Shown here one piece after another: positions 13,102 to 20,076 of a stretch of 64,000 nt of DNA. The DNA is from Natronosalvus vescus (GTDB lineage: Archaea > Halobacteriota > Halobacteria > Halobacteriales > Natrialbaceae). The notes beneath the pieces are model-generated. The model worked only from the letters and a program-made list of their open reading frames with translations, did no database searches and was not told the origin of the DNA. The stretch lies in the NCBI RefSeq assembly GCF_023973145.1, contig NZ_CP099546.1, forward strand, positions 3,410,001 through 3,474,000, read 5' to 3'. The translations under genes were made by a program, and so were the position numbers. Within the stretch, counting starts at the first letter, position 1; the number at the start of each line of letters is the position of its first letter.

Positions 13102-13107
13102 TTTAAG
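13102..13107 (+). promoter_or_regulatory. TATA box of the helicase-nuclease operon
   Basis: TTTAAG within GGTTTAAGTACC, 34-39 nt upstream of ATG 13141. It is the only convincing promoter before the three overlapping genes. Confidence 0.5.
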
Positions 13108-13140
13108 TACCATACAGTCACTACACCGTGACAGACCACC

Positions 13141-15387
13141 ATGCCGCCAGACGGGCCGCCGGCCCTCGAGGGAACGCTCGTCGCCTGTTCCCACCCCCGA
13201 AGCGACCTCCACGCGTGTATCACCGACGAGTACGCCGACCTGGTCGACCGCGTCGGCGCAAAGAACGTCCTCGTCCTCCAACGCCATCCGTCGGGACTCG
13301 AGCGACTCGAACGGACGCTGGTCGAAGCCGATACGATCCACACGCCCCGACTCGAGGCCCTGCCCGAACACGCCTCAAAGGTACTCGAGGAGTACGATCC
13401 GACGCTCGAACGCCTCGAGTACGAAGAGCGGATCGAACTCATCTCGCTCGTCATCGCCGGAGCGAGTCGCGACGTCCCGCCGTACCTCGAGCGTGCCAGC
13501 GACCACGATGGGTTCGCCCGTGACGTGGGTCGTCTCCTGCTCGAGGCGACCCGGCAACGAATCGATTCGACGACCATCGATCCAGACACCCATTCTTGTC
13601 TCGCCTACCTCTACGCGATGAACGATCGGTTTCACGACGAACTCGAGGCACGGGGGTTCATCGAGCGGGCGAGCGTGATTCCCCGGGTCGTCGATTTGCT
13701 CGAGGCGGACGCCGACGGCCTCCGAGAGCGCGTCACCGCATCGTTCGACGCCGTTCTCGCAGTGCAGTTCGAGGAGTTTCGCCGGCTGGATCGACACTAT
13801 CTGGCGGCGCTGACCGCCGACGCCGACCTCGTCTGTGTCGGGCAACGGCACGCGAGCGTCGAACGTACCCGCGTCGAACCAGGCTCGCTCGAGTCGATTG
13901 CGACCGGGGTCGGTCTCGAGTGCCGTCCCCCAGCACGCGAGACGGGACCGGAGACGCCCCACCGAACGATTACAGAGCTCCTGGCAACCGGCTCACCCCC
14001 AGTGGACGAGCAGGATCCGTCTGGCACCGCCTACCGAATCCGGGCCGAAACCGCCCGCGACCAGGCCACACAGGTCGCCCGCGAGATCGAGTCACTGTGT
14101 GTTCGGGAGGGCTGGTCGTACGACGAGGTCGCCGTCGCCGTGCCGCGAGCGGAGCGGATCCCGCCCACCCGACGGTGGCTACGTGACGCCGGGGTGCCGA
14201 CGGCGACCGTCGGCACACCGTCGCTGGCGGACGATCCGGCCGTCAGCGAACTGTACGCGGTCATCGAAGCCCAGTGTACGCTCGATCGGGGCCGCTCCAC
14301 GGCCGACCTCGAGGAGGTCGTCGTCGATCGACTGGCCGCTCGCGTTCCCGACTTCTCGCCGACCACGCTCGAAACCTGCCGAGACCGGTCGGTGACGACG
14401 ACCCTCGAGCGCTGGCTCGAGGTGACGAACCTCAAAGGCCGCATCGCACGCGACGAGCCCTGGGTCGACGCTCGCGAACAGTTCGAGAGCGTTCGCCGCG
14501 TCCTCGAGATTGCCCGTTTCGTCGAGCAGACCGACCTCGTTGCCCCCGACTGGCAGGGCCTCCGCCGGATGCTCCAGCGGACGATCGAGTACGACGCGCC
14601 TCACGTCCACACCATCGAGACCGCCACGACCGGTGGCGGAGTGTCCGTCTGTCCGATCGACGACCTCGCCACCGACACGCGGGAGGCCGTGTTCGTGCTC
14701 GATCTGACCGACGACAACTATCCGGGGACGCAGTTTCTGACCCCGTTGTTTCCTCAGGCGTGGCTGCGGTCGATGCCGGCGTTTCCCGCCGTGACGAATC
14801 CGACACCGGTGGAACTCGAGGAGACGTTCGCCACGGTCAGGGCGGACGAAGCGGTGGCCGATCCCTTCGAGCGCTACCACGCCGAACGATCGCGTCGGAA
14901 ACTCGCGCTGGCTTCGCGGGCCGCACGGTGCCACCTCTGTCTCTGCTCGTACGAGCGCGAAACCGACGGATTACGCCGAACGCATGAGGAATCCCGGTTC
15001 GTTCGCGAACTCGACGCCTCGCCAGTCGTCGAACTGGAAGACGTCGATCCCCCCGATACTCGCGGGCGGATCCACGGCCGCCAGCGCACGCTCGAGGCGA
15101 TTCTGGGGACGCCCTGGAACGACCTCGAGACCCTCCGGCGACGGACATCGATCGGTGAAGTGGCGTCGCTCTCAGATAGCGAGGAGTGGATGCAGGAGAT
15201 CGCGCTCGCACTCGAGACTGTCGGGGGTGACAGGGATGCTGGTGGTTGGGCCGAGGATGCTGCAGGTGACGATGACGGAACCGTCGAAGGTGGCAATGAC
15301 AGGGTTGCTGGCGGGTGCGTCGACGAGGAACTCCGACAGGCCATCGAGACGCAGTTCGAATTTGCCGCGGGGGAAGTTCGTCGATGA
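13141..15387 (+). CDS. AddB/RecC-like inactivated superfamily-1 helicase subunit
   Basis: A 748-aa protein, first of three overlapping genes. It has the overall plan of a UvrD/AddB-type helicase, but the ATPase motifs look degenerate. Where a Walker A would be, the N-terminus reads TLVACSHPRSDLHAC with no GKT/S. The motif II region is DAVLAVQFEEFRRLDRHYLA instead of VDEFQ. The C-terminal half keeps UvrD-C-like segments: QVAREIESLCVREGWSYDEV (~310), the motif V region VSVCPIDDLATDTREAVFVL (~500), and a degenerate motif VI (RRKLALASRAARCHLCLC). I infer a structural, DNA-holding partner like RecC or AddB. Unlike AddB, it carries no nuclease domain; that seems to be the next gene, whose ATG overlaps its stop (ATGA). 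The last ~70 residues are Gly/Asp-rich and probably flexible. Confidence 0.66.
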   Translation: MPPDGPPALEGTLVACSHPRSDLHACITDEYADLVDRVGAKNVLVLQRHPSGLERLERTLVEADTIHTPRLEALPEHASKVLEEYDPTLERLEYEERIELISLVIAGASRDVPPYLERASDHDGFARDVGRLLLEATRQRIDSTTIDPDTHSCLAYLYAMNDRFHDELEARGFIERASVIPRVVDLLEADADGLRERVTASFDAVLAVQFEEFRRLDRHYLAALTADADLVCVGQRHASVERTRVEPGSLESIATGVGLECRPPARETGPETPHRTITELLATGSPPVDEQDPSGTAYRIRAETARDQATQVAREIESLCVREGWSYDEVAVAVPRAERIPPTRRWLRDAGVPTATVGTPSLADDPAVSELYAVIEAQCTLDRGRSTADLEEVVVDRLAARVPDFSPTTLETCRDRSVTTTLERWLEVTNLKGRIARDEPWVDAREQFESVRRVLEIARFVEQTDLVAPDWQGLRRMLQRTIEYDAPHVHTIETATTGGGVSVCPIDDLATDTREAVFVLDLTDDNYPGTQFLTPLFPQAWLRSMPAFPAVTNPTPVELEETFATVRADEAVADPFERYHAERSRRKLALASRAARCHLCLCSYERETDGLRRTHEESRFVRELDASPVVELEDVDPPDTRGRIHGRQRTLEAILGTPWNDLETLRRRTSIGEVASLSDSEEWMQEIALALETVGGDRDAGGWAEDAAGDDDGTVEGGNDRVAGGCVDEELRQAIETQFEFAAGEVRR

Positions 15388-16463
15388 CCGCCGAACCCGA
15401 CCCGGATGCGGACACGGGCGACGAGAGCGGCTCGAGTGACTCGAGTGACCGCCACAACGTCCCCATCGAGGGGATCCAGACGTACCTCTCCTGCCCACGC
15501 CAGTACGAGTACGAGCACGTCTATCGGCTCACAGCCGACGACGAGAGCCCCGAGACCGACCGCTTGCACCTCCTGCGGAGAGCGATCTGTGCGGCGCTTC
15601 GAGCCGGCGACGTCGAGACGCTCGAGGAACGGGCACTCGAGGAGTTCGAAACCCAATGGGACGACTACGCCGAGGAGGTTCACTCACCCACACAGCGCCG
15701 TCACGAACGGCGCGTGCTCGAGGCCACGATTCGAGCCTACGCCGAAGCGGTCGGTTGCGACCACGCCAAGGGGCTGTACGCGACCAGGGCGACCGGCATT
15801 ACGGGGGAGCTGGTCGGCCCCGATCTGCCGGTGACGGCGACGGTTTCCGCTACTCGAGTGGGCGGTGAGAACGTCGTCGACCTCGACATCGACGCCACCA
15901 TCGACTACGCCTTCCTCGAGGGATCCTCGTTCGTCGGTGTCCGATTCGTGGCGGCGCCCGACCACCTCGGACTGGCTCGCTATCGCGACTCGTGGGAGGG
16001 CGACATTGAAGACGCGTTCGCCGATCACGTCGACCCAGAATCCGACAGGTTCGAACCGCGTCTCGTCGGCACCCTGTTCGAGACGGCCACGGTGCTCGAG
16101 GGTCTCCGCACCCTCCGGGATCGACTGGGGCTGGAGGACGCCCGAACCTGCCGATACGTCCAGATCCCACTCCTCGATCGAGGTGGGCTCTCAGTCAACT
16201 GGCATCGCGACCGCGTCGAAACGACGCTCGAGCCAATCGATCTCACCGATCGGTATCTCGACCACGACACCTTCGGGATGACGCTCGAGCATCGCAATCG
16301 AACGATCGACGGCCAGCTCAAACGGGTCACATACGCGGCGTCGACGGGATCGTACGAACCCACCGAGCGCTGGGAACAGATCGAACGCCACGCCTGTCCG
16401 ACCTGCCCGTACACCGTCTGTTGTCCGGAGTATCTCTCGAGCGAGGTGGCGTTCGATGGGTGA
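15384..16463 (+). CDS. AddB nuclease-domain-like Fe-S protein with degenerate catalytic motif
   Basis: A 359-aa protein translated from an ATGA overlap with the preceding gene; it overlaps the next gene by 8 nt. After an acidic N-terminal tail it has YLSCPRQYEYEHVYRL (Cys37) and near its end ACPTCPYTVCC (Cys338, Cys341, Cys346/347). This C...CxxC...C pattern is the 4Fe-4S staple of AddB/Cas4-type PD-(D/E)XK nucleases. The expected catalytic strand (GxxD...DYK) is not visible: the corresponding region reads IDATIDYAFLEGSSFVGVRF without the D/E-x-K. I infer a nuclease fold that has lost catalysis but kept the Fe-S fold, acting as the detached C-terminal half of an AddB-like subunit. Alternative: a nuclease with an unusual active site. 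Confidence 0.6.
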   Translation: MTAEPDPDADTGDESGSSDSSDRHNVPIEGIQTYLSCPRQYEYEHVYRLTADDESPETDRLHLLRRAICAALRAGDVETLEERALEEFETQWDDYAEEVHSPTQRRHERRVLEATIRAYAEAVGCDHAKGLYATRATGITGELVGPDLPVTATVSATRVGGENVVDLDIDATIDYAFLEGSSFVGVRFVAAPDHLGLARYRDSWEGDIEDAFADHVDPESDRFEPRLVGTLFETATVLEGLRTLRDRLGLEDARTCRYVQIPLLDRGGLSVNWHRDRVETTLEPIDLTDRYLDHDTFGMTLEHRNRTIDGQLKRVTYAASTGSYEPTERWEQIERHACPTCPYTVCCPEYLSSEVAFDG

Positions 16464-19400
16464 GGAGGGAGACCGATCACAGACCCCACAGGGCAATCAG
16501 CGAGCAGTCATCGAGAGCGACGCGACGTGCATATCGGTCGACGCCGGTGCCGGAACCGGCAAGACGACGACGATGCTCATGCGGATCGAACGGGCACTCG
16601 AACGCGGGGACGTCGACCCCGAGGAGATCCTCGTCGTCACCTTCGCGAACGAGGCTGCCGCCAACATCCGAGAGTCGATCGCCGACAGACTCGAGCCCGC
16701 GGTGGCCGCACGCATCGACGTTTACACCTACCACTCGCTATGTTATCGGCTGGTTCGGGAGTACGCCTACTACCTCGGCCTTTCGCCGTCGTTCGAGGTC
16801 GTCACCGAACGCGGCCGGCGACGACTCCTGAATCGGCTGCTCGCCGAGCGCGATTACGGGTTCGCGGCGGTCGACGTTGCACCCGGTGAGCGGGCAACAC
16901 CGGCGACGCTCGCGAGAACCGTCGACGAGTTCGTTTCCGTCATGAGCCGGGAGAACATCGATCCCGACGACCTTGAGGCGGCGCTCCCCGACGAGCGCAC
17001 GCTCAACTTCCTCGACGAACTCCTCTCGATGGCCCGGCGGGAAGCCACCGCGTCGCTCTCGTTCGACAACGAAGCGCTCCGATACTTCAACCGGGACGAA
17101 CATCTCGAGGCAGCCCGCGAAGCACTCGTCAGCTACGGCACGCGGTTGACGTTCTGCCGGGAGAAGATCGCCGAATCTCCGGCTTCGTTCCGGGAGGAAC
17201 CACTCGTCGAGGAGATCGACGCGTATCTCCGCACCGTCCAGGCCTGCGTGACGAACGTTCACGGCGCGATGGATCTCGACGATCCTACTACGAAACAGCT
17301 TCCTCGGGTGCTCTTCGCAAACCAGATCTGGGGGGATCGAACGAAGGCGATCGAGCAGACGCCGATCGGTCGCCTCGAACACTACGTGGCCTTTCTCAGG
17401 CAAGCGATCCACTACACGGCGATCTACGCGGACTATCGGGAGCTCCTTGCGACGGAGGGTGCCGTCGACTTCGACGAACTCGTTCGGACGGCAACGCGAC
17501 TGGTTGCCGATCCGAGGGTCGCCGACGAAATCGTCGGTCGGTGGACACACGTTTACTGCGACGAGTTTCAGGACACCGACGCGACCCAGTGGTCGCTGGT
17601 GACCGAACTCACCCGTGGCGACGACCGACCGGAGCTGCTCGCGATCGGCGACACCGACCAGGCGATCTACGGCTGGCGTGGCACCGATCCCAGGGGCCTC
17701 GAGCGCGTCGGTGCGGACGACCCGGATCACGAGTCGATCGAACTCGAGGTGAACTTCCGATCGAGACAGGAGATCCTGGATCTCACGAATCACTGTTCGT
17801 ACGGGCCGCAGACGTCGAAGACGCTCCGGGAGTTCGGTCGAATCCCGGGCGAGTACGACGAATCGAATCCGCTACACCGCGTGCTGAAAGTCGAGAGCGA
17901 CGACCTCGCGTGGTCGGTACCAGAGCAGGTGGGAATGACGATTTCCCGCCTGCTCACCGACGAGTGCGCCCGCGTTCCGAAGCGAACGGTCGGCGACATC
18001 GCCGTGATCGTCCGGACGAACGCTCAGGCACAGGCGATCACCGACGAACTCGAGTCCCGCCAAATCCCCTACGAGCGGGCCGGCTCGACGGTGGGTTCGA
18101 CCGCCCCGGGCGTCCAGACGATCATCTCGTACCTCCGGGTGCTCGCTGACCCCGGTGCCGAGACCCACCTCCGGCGGGTGTTGCTCATGCGATACCGGCT
18201 GTCGGAGACTGACCTGACTCGACTCCAGACGGCCGACACCGGGCTGTACGAAGCACTCCGTTCCGTCGACATCGACACGCTAGAAAACCCGTCGCGCGTC
18301 GAACGAGCGCGAGCAGATCTCGAGGCGCTCACGGCCGAGACAGACGCCTATCCCCTCACCCAGTTTCTGCGACGGTTCCGTGAGCGAACGCGACTCGAGT
18401 GGTTCCTCGAGCCGGCGGCTCGACGTGCCTTCGACCGGATCGAACGCTTCGCCGACACGTACGACGGCAACGACGTGCTGGGGTCGCTCTCGACACGCTT
18501 CGTCGATGCGCTCGAGCGAGCGGTGACCGGTGGATCTGGCGACCGCCAGCAGGGAACGACCTCCGAAGATGCGATCGACGTTATGACCGTTCACCAGGCA
18601 AAAGGCCTCCAGTACGACACGGTACTCGTGCCGTACTGCTCCGACGAGGAGTGGTGTGTCCGATCTGACTACGCCTACAGCGCGCGATATCGACTGCTCA
18701 CTGCCATGCTCGATGCGGACGAGGGGTCACCGTCACCATTGTATGCGGATCTCGCGACCGAACCGGTCGCCGAATCCTGGCGCGTTCTCCACGTTGCGCT
18801 GACGCGGGCCGAAAATCACCTCTTCGTGTTCGGTTCCGAGTACGACTACGAGGGCGGATCGGATGCATTGGGGTCGTCCACGGCCGAGGCGTGCCTCCCG
18901 TCATCGATCGAGTGGTCGGTCACAGGCGAGCGCCTGGATCTCTGGACGACACTCACCGAGGCGTTCGAGCGGGTCGAAGAAACCTATCCGGAGACCGTTG
19001 TGGACGTGACCGACACCCTCTCAGCGACCACGCAGGGCCCGATGGGAGAGGTTGCCTACACCGACGGCGATGACGAGCGCACGCTCGAGGCCACAGAGGC
19101 AGTCGGGGTGATCCACCGCCTGGGTCGGTTGCTCCGTAACGGCTCCCTACTCTCGGCGTCCGACGCGGCACCGTCCGTGTCCGAAACACCGATTCCAGCG
19201 AGCCGCCGAACCGGTGCGCTCGATCGGGCTGCCGTTCGATTTTCGATCGACGCCCTCTTCGATCCGACCGGTGACTCCGCTCCCGGCGCGCTCACCCACA
19301 GCTACAGCGCGTTGCGAACCCACGGCGAGTGTCCGCGAAAGCACTACCTCGAGTACGTCGTCGGTGCCCCGGACGATCCAGTAGCGGACGACTCGAGCAA

Positions 19401-20076
19401 CGGAGAGGGTTCTGCCGACGCCACCGATCCGACGGCACCCCGCCAGAACGCTCGCCTCGTCGGTACCGTCTTCCACGCCGTCGCCGAGGAGTCGTTCCAC
19501 CGAGGCTATACAAGCCAATCCGAGTGGGAGAACGCCGCCAGGCGACAGCTGGCGGCTCGTGGCCAGCACCAGCACGAACCGACCGTTCTGGCGTGTATCG
19601 ACCGATACTTCGAGGCAGGCACACCTGAAATAGACGCACCCGTCCACGAGTGGCCGGAACTCGCCGCCGAAGTGTCGTTCACCGTCGACGACGTCCCTGG
19701 CGTCGACGGTTCCGTCGTCGGTGCGATCGACACCGTTCGTCGGACGCCCGACGGAGATCTGGTCGTCCTCGATTACAAGGCCACTGGCGAACGGATCGAC
19801 CCCGACTCGGCCGTCCAGCTCTCGCTGTACGCCCGCGCCTACGAACGCCAGTTCGGCGAGGCCGTCGACGCAGTGGGCTACGTCTACGTTGGCCCGGTCG
19901 ACGGTTCCCGACCGCGGGTGGATCTCCGCCAATCCACCGTAGTCCCCGCCTGGGAATCAGTTCGCGACGCGCTCGAGGCACTCGACCAGCCAGGGTACGC
20001 GGAGACGACGCCAGGCTCACACTGTCAGTACTGTGCCCACCGCTCGCTGGGCTGTGGGCCGGATCACCTCGAGTAA
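16456..20076 (+). CDS. UvrD/AddA-like ATP-dependent helicase fused to PD-(D/E)XK nuclease with Fe-S site
   Basis: A 1206-aa helicase-nuclease, the active subunit of the three-gene cluster. Superfamily-1 motifs are complete: Q motif QGNQRAVI (12-19), Walker A GAGTGKTT (31-38), Walker B HVYCDEFQDTD (~366), motif III DTDQAIYGWRG (~399), motif IV VNFRSRQE, motif V MTVHQAKGLQYDT (~710) and motif VI VLHVALTRAENHL (~777). The C-terminal nuclease has GAIDTV (~1089), VLDYKAT (~1103) and VQLSLYA, so the PD-(D/E)XK residues are intact. Four Cys (959, 1190, 1193, 1200) fit an Fe-S staple around it. It probably unwinds and resects double-strand breaks for recombination, using the two upstream proteins as partners. 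It starts inside the end of the preceding gene, implying coupled translation. Confidence 0.86.
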   Translation: MGEEGDRSQTPQGNQRAVIESDATCISVDAGAGTGKTTTMLMRIERALERGDVDPEEILVVTFANEAAANIRESIADRLEPAVAARIDVYTYHSLCYRLVREYAYYLGLSPSFEVVTERGRRRLLNRLLAERDYGFAAVDVAPGERATPATLARTVDEFVSVMSRENIDPDDLEAALPDERTLNFLDELLSMARREATASLSFDNEALRYFNRDEHLEAAREALVSYGTRLTFCREKIAESPASFREEPLVEEIDAYLRTVQACVTNVHGAMDLDDPTTKQLPRVLFANQIWGDRTKAIEQTPIGRLEHYVAFLRQAIHYTAIYADYRELLATEGAVDFDELVRTATRLVADPRVADEIVGRWTHVYCDEFQDTDATQWSLVTELTRGDDRPELLAIGDTDQAIYGWRGTDPRGLERVGADDPDHESIELEVNFRSRQEILDLTNHCSYGPQTSKTLREFGRIPGEYDESNPLHRVLKVESDDLAWSVPEQVGMTISRLLTDECARVPKRTVGDIAVIVRTNAQAQAITDELESRQIPYERAGSTVGSTAPGVQTIISYLRVLADPGAETHLRRVLLMRYRLSETDLTRLQTADTGLYEALRSVDIDTLENPSRVERARADLEALTAETDAYPLTQFLRRFRERTRLEWFLEPAARRAFDRIERFADTYDGNDVLGSLSTRFVDALERAVTGGSGDRQQGTTSEDAIDVMTVHQAKGLQYDTVLVPYCSDEEWCVRSDYAYSARYRLLTAMLDADEGSPSPLYADLATEPVAESWRVLHVALTRAENHLFVFGSEYDYEGGSDALGSSTAEACLPSSIEWSVTGERLDLWTTLTEAFERVEETYPETVVDVTDTLSATTQGPMGEVAYTDGDDERTLEATEAVGVIHRLGRLLRNGSLLSASDAAPSVSETPIPASRRTGALDRAAVRFSIDALFDPTGDSAPGALTHSYSALRTHGECPRKHYLEYVVGAPDDPVADDSSNGEGSADATDPTAPRQNARLVGTVFHAVAEESFHRGYTSQSEWENAARRQLAARGQHQHEPTVLACIDRYFEAGTPEIDAPVHEWPELAAEVSFTVDDVPGVDGSVVGAIDTVRRTPDGDLVVLDYKATGERIDPDSAVQLSLYARAYERQFGEAVDAVGYVYVGPVDGSRPRVDLRQSTVVPAWESVRDALEALDQPGYAETTPGSHCQYCAHRSLGCGPDHLE

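Follow-up and report, generated by a model that had tools for sequence, protein, structure and literature searches.

Within a 64,000-nucleotide stretch of the 3.84-Mb chromosome of the haloarchaeon Natronosalvus vescus (NZ_CP099546.1, positions 3,410,001 to 3,474,000; hereafter the window), three overlapping genes probably encode a single heterotrimeric DNA-end-processing enzyme of the AddAB/RecBC type, in which the AddB-like half is split at the boundary between helicase and nuclease. All three lie on the + strand. Gene 1 (13141..15387, 748 aa) specifies an inactivated superfamily 1 (SF1) helicase-like protein of the AddB/AdnA type, gene 2 (15384..16463, 359 aa) a stand-alone AddB-type nuclease-fold protein and gene 3 (16456..20076, 1206 aa) an SF1A helicase fused to an Fe-S-type PD-(D/E)XK nuclease. 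The operon is conserved, its three parts are homologous in sequence and fold to known helicase-nuclease components, and genes 1 and 2 are collinear with one AddB chain. In one of two clades, that of the window, gene 2 has lost its catalytic residues and is under purifying selection.

Operon structure and distribution

The open reading frames of the trio lie exactly where a sequence-only reading of the window had placed them, and the compact operon that it described was recovered: genes 1 and 2 meet in an ATGA overlap, and genes 2 and 3 overlap by 8 nt. Upstream of gene 1 no sigma-70-type site was found, and a possible archaeal TATA box, TTTAAGTA (13102..13109, + strand), can be read about 33 nt before its ATG, which would be compatible with one archaeal promoter serving the whole operon.

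Gene 1 was found in 54 of the 145 Halobacteria genomes searched. The 55 neighbourhoods around its copies (L031-L085) and the window make up 56 loci, and in 55 of these all three genes lie on one strand in the same order and overlap or nearly touch, which shows that the gene order is conserved among haloarchaea. The lone exception (L080) has a truncated gene 1, and gene 3 is incomplete at two loci (L071 and L074). Across 84,980 bacterial and archaeal species, a scan yielded 77 loci; wherever a title named a species, that species was haloarchaeal. Gene 1 homologs also occur on 16 haloarchaeal plasmids, one of them truncated, and no relative was found in virus and phage collections at the sensitivity used. 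Weak gene 1 matches in one family outside Halobacteria were rejected as further trios, given that they proved to be single UvrD-Cas4-type proteins. Single UvrD-plus-nuclease proteins of 1020-1070 aa with a C-terminal Cys set, and no genes 1 or 2, are encoded at L116-L122 and L130-L133 in family f12 of the same phylum.

When a tree was built for each of the three genes, all of them divided into the same two clades. Clade I, which includes the window, is present in 32 of the 36 genomes of the window's family, Natrialbaceae, and in 3 of the 109 other Halobacteria. Clade II occurs in 19 of these 109, one of them with a truncated copy that the tree does not place, and 3 of the 36 Natrialbaceae carry it as a second copy.

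Homology, fold and active sites of the three proteins

A Pfam search gave no match for gene 1. Walker A is absent from it at all 41 loci of the active-site alignment, in clade I and clade II alike, and motif II of the window copy reads FEEF. When the gene 1 profile was searched against the PDB, the top match was not an unrelated family but Bacillus subtilis AddB (E 7.9e-9), followed by UvrD1, PcrA and AdnA, and in profile-profile comparison gene 1 maps onto residues 45-553 of the unsplit archaeal AddB (98%, E 1e-13). Residues 10-700 of its AlphaFold model (mean pLDDT 83) superpose on AddB 2-768 (Z 22, 607 residues aligned, rmsd 6.1), and the model matches AdnA with Z 20-22. Single-sequence PDB searches with genes 1 and 2 returned nothing useful. 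In public records (NCBI) gene 1 on plasmids is named ‘DNA helicase UvrD’ despite its lack of ATPase motifs, a name that is likely to be misleading.

For gene 2, Pfam reports a partial PDDEXK_1 match over the first third only (E 6e-6, residues 31-121), and a search with the gene 2 family profile gave chance matches only. The AlphaFold model of gene 2 (mean pLDDT 87) superposes over residues 21-355 on AddB 785-1138 (Z about 14) and also on AdnA 789-1039 (Z 14.7), the next structural matches being the Argonaute-associated Cas4-like ACE1 and Dna2. Profile-profile comparison places gene 2 on residues 708-1010 of the unsplit archaeal AddB (94%, E 1e-7). Given that gene 1 matches AddB 2-768 and gene 2 AddB 785-1138, the second protein takes up where the first leaves off on one AddB chain. 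The window copy has four Cys, namely Cys37 (15492..15494, + strand), the first of the four-Cys staple, and Cys338, Cys341 and Cys347 (16395-16397, 16404-16406 and 16422-16424, + strand), which are retained at 41 of 41 loci across both clades. It has no D-x-K pair, and Asp174 (15903..15905, + strand), equivalent to the D of GxxD, is the sole remaining catalytic-type acidic residue.

Gene 3 has clear Pfam matches to UvrD (4e-53), UvrD_C and PDDEXK_1 (6e-23). The helicase region (UvrD, UvrD_C) spans 16495..18831 and the PDDEXK_1 nuclease domain 19300..20046, both on the + strand; the latter carries D1092, D1106-Y-K1108, Q1121, Y1125 and Cys 959/1190/1193/1200. Walker A, DEFQD, the nuclease residues D1092/D1106-Y-K1108 and the four Cys, which may hold an actual Fe-S cluster, are invariant in 28 relatives. 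Searched alone, the nuclease domain gave chance matches only. PADLOC matches of gene 3 to GajB and to DRT helicases reflect general SF1 similarity only and were rejected as identities; no GajA match is listed for genes 1 and 2, which likewise sets the trio apart from Gabija.

The sequence-only reading had seen in these genes a helicase-shaped protein without ATPase motifs, a Cys-staple nuclease fold without a visible catalytic triad and a complete SF1 helicase plus PD-(D/E)XK nuclease with its own Fe-S-type Cys set, and had taken the first two for an AddB cut into two proteins. The profile matches, models and alignments agree with each of these points. Its further view that both AddB pieces are catalytically dead holds for the clade of the window but not for clade II, in which the active site of gene 2 is intact.

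In clade II the complete gene 2 active site (H, E, D, D, K, Q, Y) is present in every row of the alignment, and in clade I these residues are missing in every row except for the first Asp. Gene 2 is also the most diverged member of the clade I trio, with a mean pairwise identity of 0.605 compared with 0.691 and 0.696 for genes 1 and 3, whereas in clade II it is not more diverged (0.690 compared with 0.672 and 0.735). Its faster evolution in clade I, and the absence of catalytic motifs from genes 1 and 2 of the window, could be taken to mean that these are decaying relics, or separate proteins co-transcribed with gene 3 and not part of any complex. However, omega of gene 2 among close clade I pairs is about 0.1-0.4 (median 0.37), which indicates that the dead nuclease is a maintained protein under purifying selection; values well below 1 rule out a pseudogene. 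The fixed gene order, the invariant Cys, the matching gene trees and the end-to-end match to AddB also speak against relics, and we give this explanation very little credence.

Comparison with known helicase-nucleases

Some results weigh against reading the trio as one AddAB/RecBC-type enzyme that acts in repair. UvrD chains score slightly higher than AddB against the gene 1 model (Z 26), hence the fold match of gene 1 is not specific to AddB. In a tree that took in archaeal AddA, Escherichia coli RecB, UvrD and single UvrD-Cas4-type proteins, gene 3 forms its own clade outside a supported AddA+RecB group (99/98); as it is not nested among AddA and RecB, it is not an AddA ortholog. Its profile, too, resembles single UvrD-Cas4-type proteins (E 4e-73) more closely than it does archaeal AddA (E 7e-65), and given both placements we describe gene 3 as working like AddA or RecB without classing it there. 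No Chi-type sequence came to light, although no search was aimed at one. Finally, clade II relatives occupy defence-type loci, so a repair role for the window trio is not certain.

A close parallel to the proposed heterotrimer is AddAB of B. subtilis (PDB 3u44, 4cej), with which the trio shares an inactivated SF1 part and an Fe-S-type nuclease fold collinear with AddB, a single motor-nuclease partner, and neighbouring genes in which the AddB part leads, an order also seen in the AddB-AddA operons of related archaea. Unlike in AddAB, the AddB part is two proteins and not one chain, gene 1 lacks Walker A, and gene 3 has a four-Cys set of its own and stands outside the AddA lineage although its motor and nuclease motifs are present. 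Nor does the window have two competent nucleases, the second motif having been kept in clade II and lost in clade I.

That loss brings clade I close to RecBCD in content, with one motor-nuclease next to a helicase and a nuclease-like domain that are both inactivated, which is the logic of RecC (PMC1185551), albeit with the RecC-like parts in two proteins. The trio differs from RecBCD in that the Fe-S-type Cys are retained, gene 3 does not group with E. coli RecB, and no recD was found over the cut-off in the window's genome. The RecC-like plus RecB-like composition of the sequence-only reading therefore stands for the content of clade I, but not for the lineage of gene 3. With regard to mycobacterial AdnAB (PDB 6ppj, 9np6), the gene 2 model fits the AdnA nuclease as well as it fits AddB, whereas AdnAB has two motor-nuclease subunits, both with ATP-binding motifs, and the pseudo-motor of the trio is a separate protein without an ATP-binding motif at all 41 loci. 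UvrD-Cas4-like fusions (PMC5704561) share the domain architecture and Cys set of gene 3, but are single proteins without gene 1 and gene 2 partners.

An unsplit form occurs in two families of the same phylum outside Halobacteria (f13, f20), in which neighbouring genes encode an AddB-like protein of about 1030 aa and an AddA-like one of about 1090 aa, and one haloarchaeon (G071, L129:3149-10308) has a bacterial-type two-gene operon of AddB (1137 aa) and AddA (1248 aa) separate from the trio. Such operons, and the fact that gene 1 is closest in profile to the unsplit archaeal AddB, would suit a canonical bacterial AddAB that was gained by horizontal transfer and had its addB later split by a frameshift-like event. 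The separate lineage of gene 3, its Fe-S-type Cys set and its greater profile similarity to UvrD-Cas4-type fusions argue against such a transfer, which we regard as improbable.

In the heterotrimer that we favour, gene 3 would be the motor, with a predicted 3'-to-5' polarity, and in clade I the only active nuclease. Like its counterparts in AddB and RecC, the inactivated helicase of gene 1 would separate the two DNA strands and form the wall of the channel in which the 3' strand is scanned. Gene 2 is predicted to dock at the position of the AddB nuclease domain; in clade I, being Fe-S-stapled but catalytically dead, it would serve to guide the other strand, much like the nuclease-like ‘hoop’ in RecC. 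The part that such inactivated domains play in RecC and AddB is known (PMC1185551, PMC4824097), and by analogy genes 1 and 2 may act as these domains do. Clade I would then combine one motor with one nuclease, as in RecBC, and clade II one motor with two nucleases, as in AddAB.

Genomic setting and possible roles

Clade I loci mostly occupy stable chromosomal positions, preceded by a CBS-domain gene and followed by folate-pathway, NUDIX or gltB genes. No defence neighbours were seen at clade I loci including the window, and the ago-agaP pair (Argonaute, PLD) is absent beside them. In several genomes the clade II trio lies directly downstream of an Argonaute gene (Piwi E 1e-20) and a PLD gene, and other clade II neighbours are a divergent ATPase gene, Mrr-type or methylase genes and, on plasmids, type I restriction genes. 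The Argonaute-PLD pair is the published haloarchaeal APAP system (pAgo and the AgaP PLD; PMC11442185), whose authors noted a ‘helicase-encoding gene’ near some ago-agaP operons and suggested that it might help, without resolving the trio. The sequence-only reading knew of no description of such a three-part complex, and searches of the open-licence literature found none of the trio as such, although a neighbouring helicase gene was already in print.

Several haloarchaeal families share a module of a divergent ATPase (~560 aa), Argonaute (~890 aa), PLD (706 aa) and then the nuclease-intact trio, with the three preceding genes upstream of the clade II trio at L134-L139, L204, L207, L213, L216, L221, L223 and L229. 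At L069, L070, L076, L152, L219 and L227 the clade II trio stands beside a divergent ATPase (568-620 aa) with PLD downstream and no adjacent Argonaute, and methylase genes lie upstream in some loci related to this ATPase-trio-PLD arrangement. A truncated gene 1 remnant without genes 2 and 3 lies beside the same ATPase gene at L080 (and NC_012030.1 306936-307844, Halorubrum lacusprofundi).

The position of clade II directly after the APAP genes, its restriction-modification, Mrr and other defence-type neighbours and the plasmid copies of gene 1 raise the question of whether the trio is, in both clades, an anti-plasmid or anti-virus machine that degrades foreign DNA which is linear or has been nicked by Argonaute. 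For clade I this fits poorly with its presence in 32 of 36 family genomes, its mostly recurrent flanks free of defence genes and its loss of one nuclease, and we consider a shared defence role rather unlikely.

For the Natrialbaceae trio, a role in double-strand end processing for recombination is likely. The sequence-only reading had set the trio against HerA-NurA-Rad50-Mre11 as the usual resection machinery, and this background was recovered in part: a NurA-domain gene lies beside an SMC-like AAA_23 gene (L245:3583-7490; G000:C1 about 348583-352490), but the window's genome yielded no HerA HAS-barrel. NurA matches are present in 144 of the 145 Halobacteria and in the Haloferax volcanii control, in contrast to a review in which HerA and NurA are said to be absent from H. 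volcanii (PMC7776575). According to the same review, Rad50-Mre11 holds recombination back in H. volcanii instead of promoting it, and no HerA is reported for this species. With a NurA-domain gene present in the window's genome but no HAS-barrel HerA found and no recD over the cut-off, a processive end-processor is a reasonable candidate for the missing function, although this is not proof.

Taken further, and tentatively, the trio may represent an archaeal RecBC-type resection lineage with an origin separate from that of AddAB and RecBCD. Such a heterotrimer, whose pseudonuclease is Fe-S-stapled and detached, would have become resident in Natrialbaceae after losing one nuclease, while its sister would act alongside Argonaute-PLD systems in defence; the second nuclease module could be lost or kept independently of the rest. 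In the proposal of Rigden (PMC1185551), RecBCD was at one stage AddAB-like, and the RecC nuclease became inactive only afterwards. The gene 2 family shows both the active and the inactive nuclease state in a module that forms a separate protein, which makes this inactivation step testable by a single-subunit swap. The trio is hence a natural experiment in the evolution of such machines and a candidate DNA-end processor in archaea. In clade II, its place beside Argonaute-PLD offers a link, open to testing, from guided cutting of DNA to degradation by a helicase-nuclease. Haloarchaeal end resection is poorly explained, and for Natrialbaceae a processive AddAB-like enzyme is a concrete candidate.

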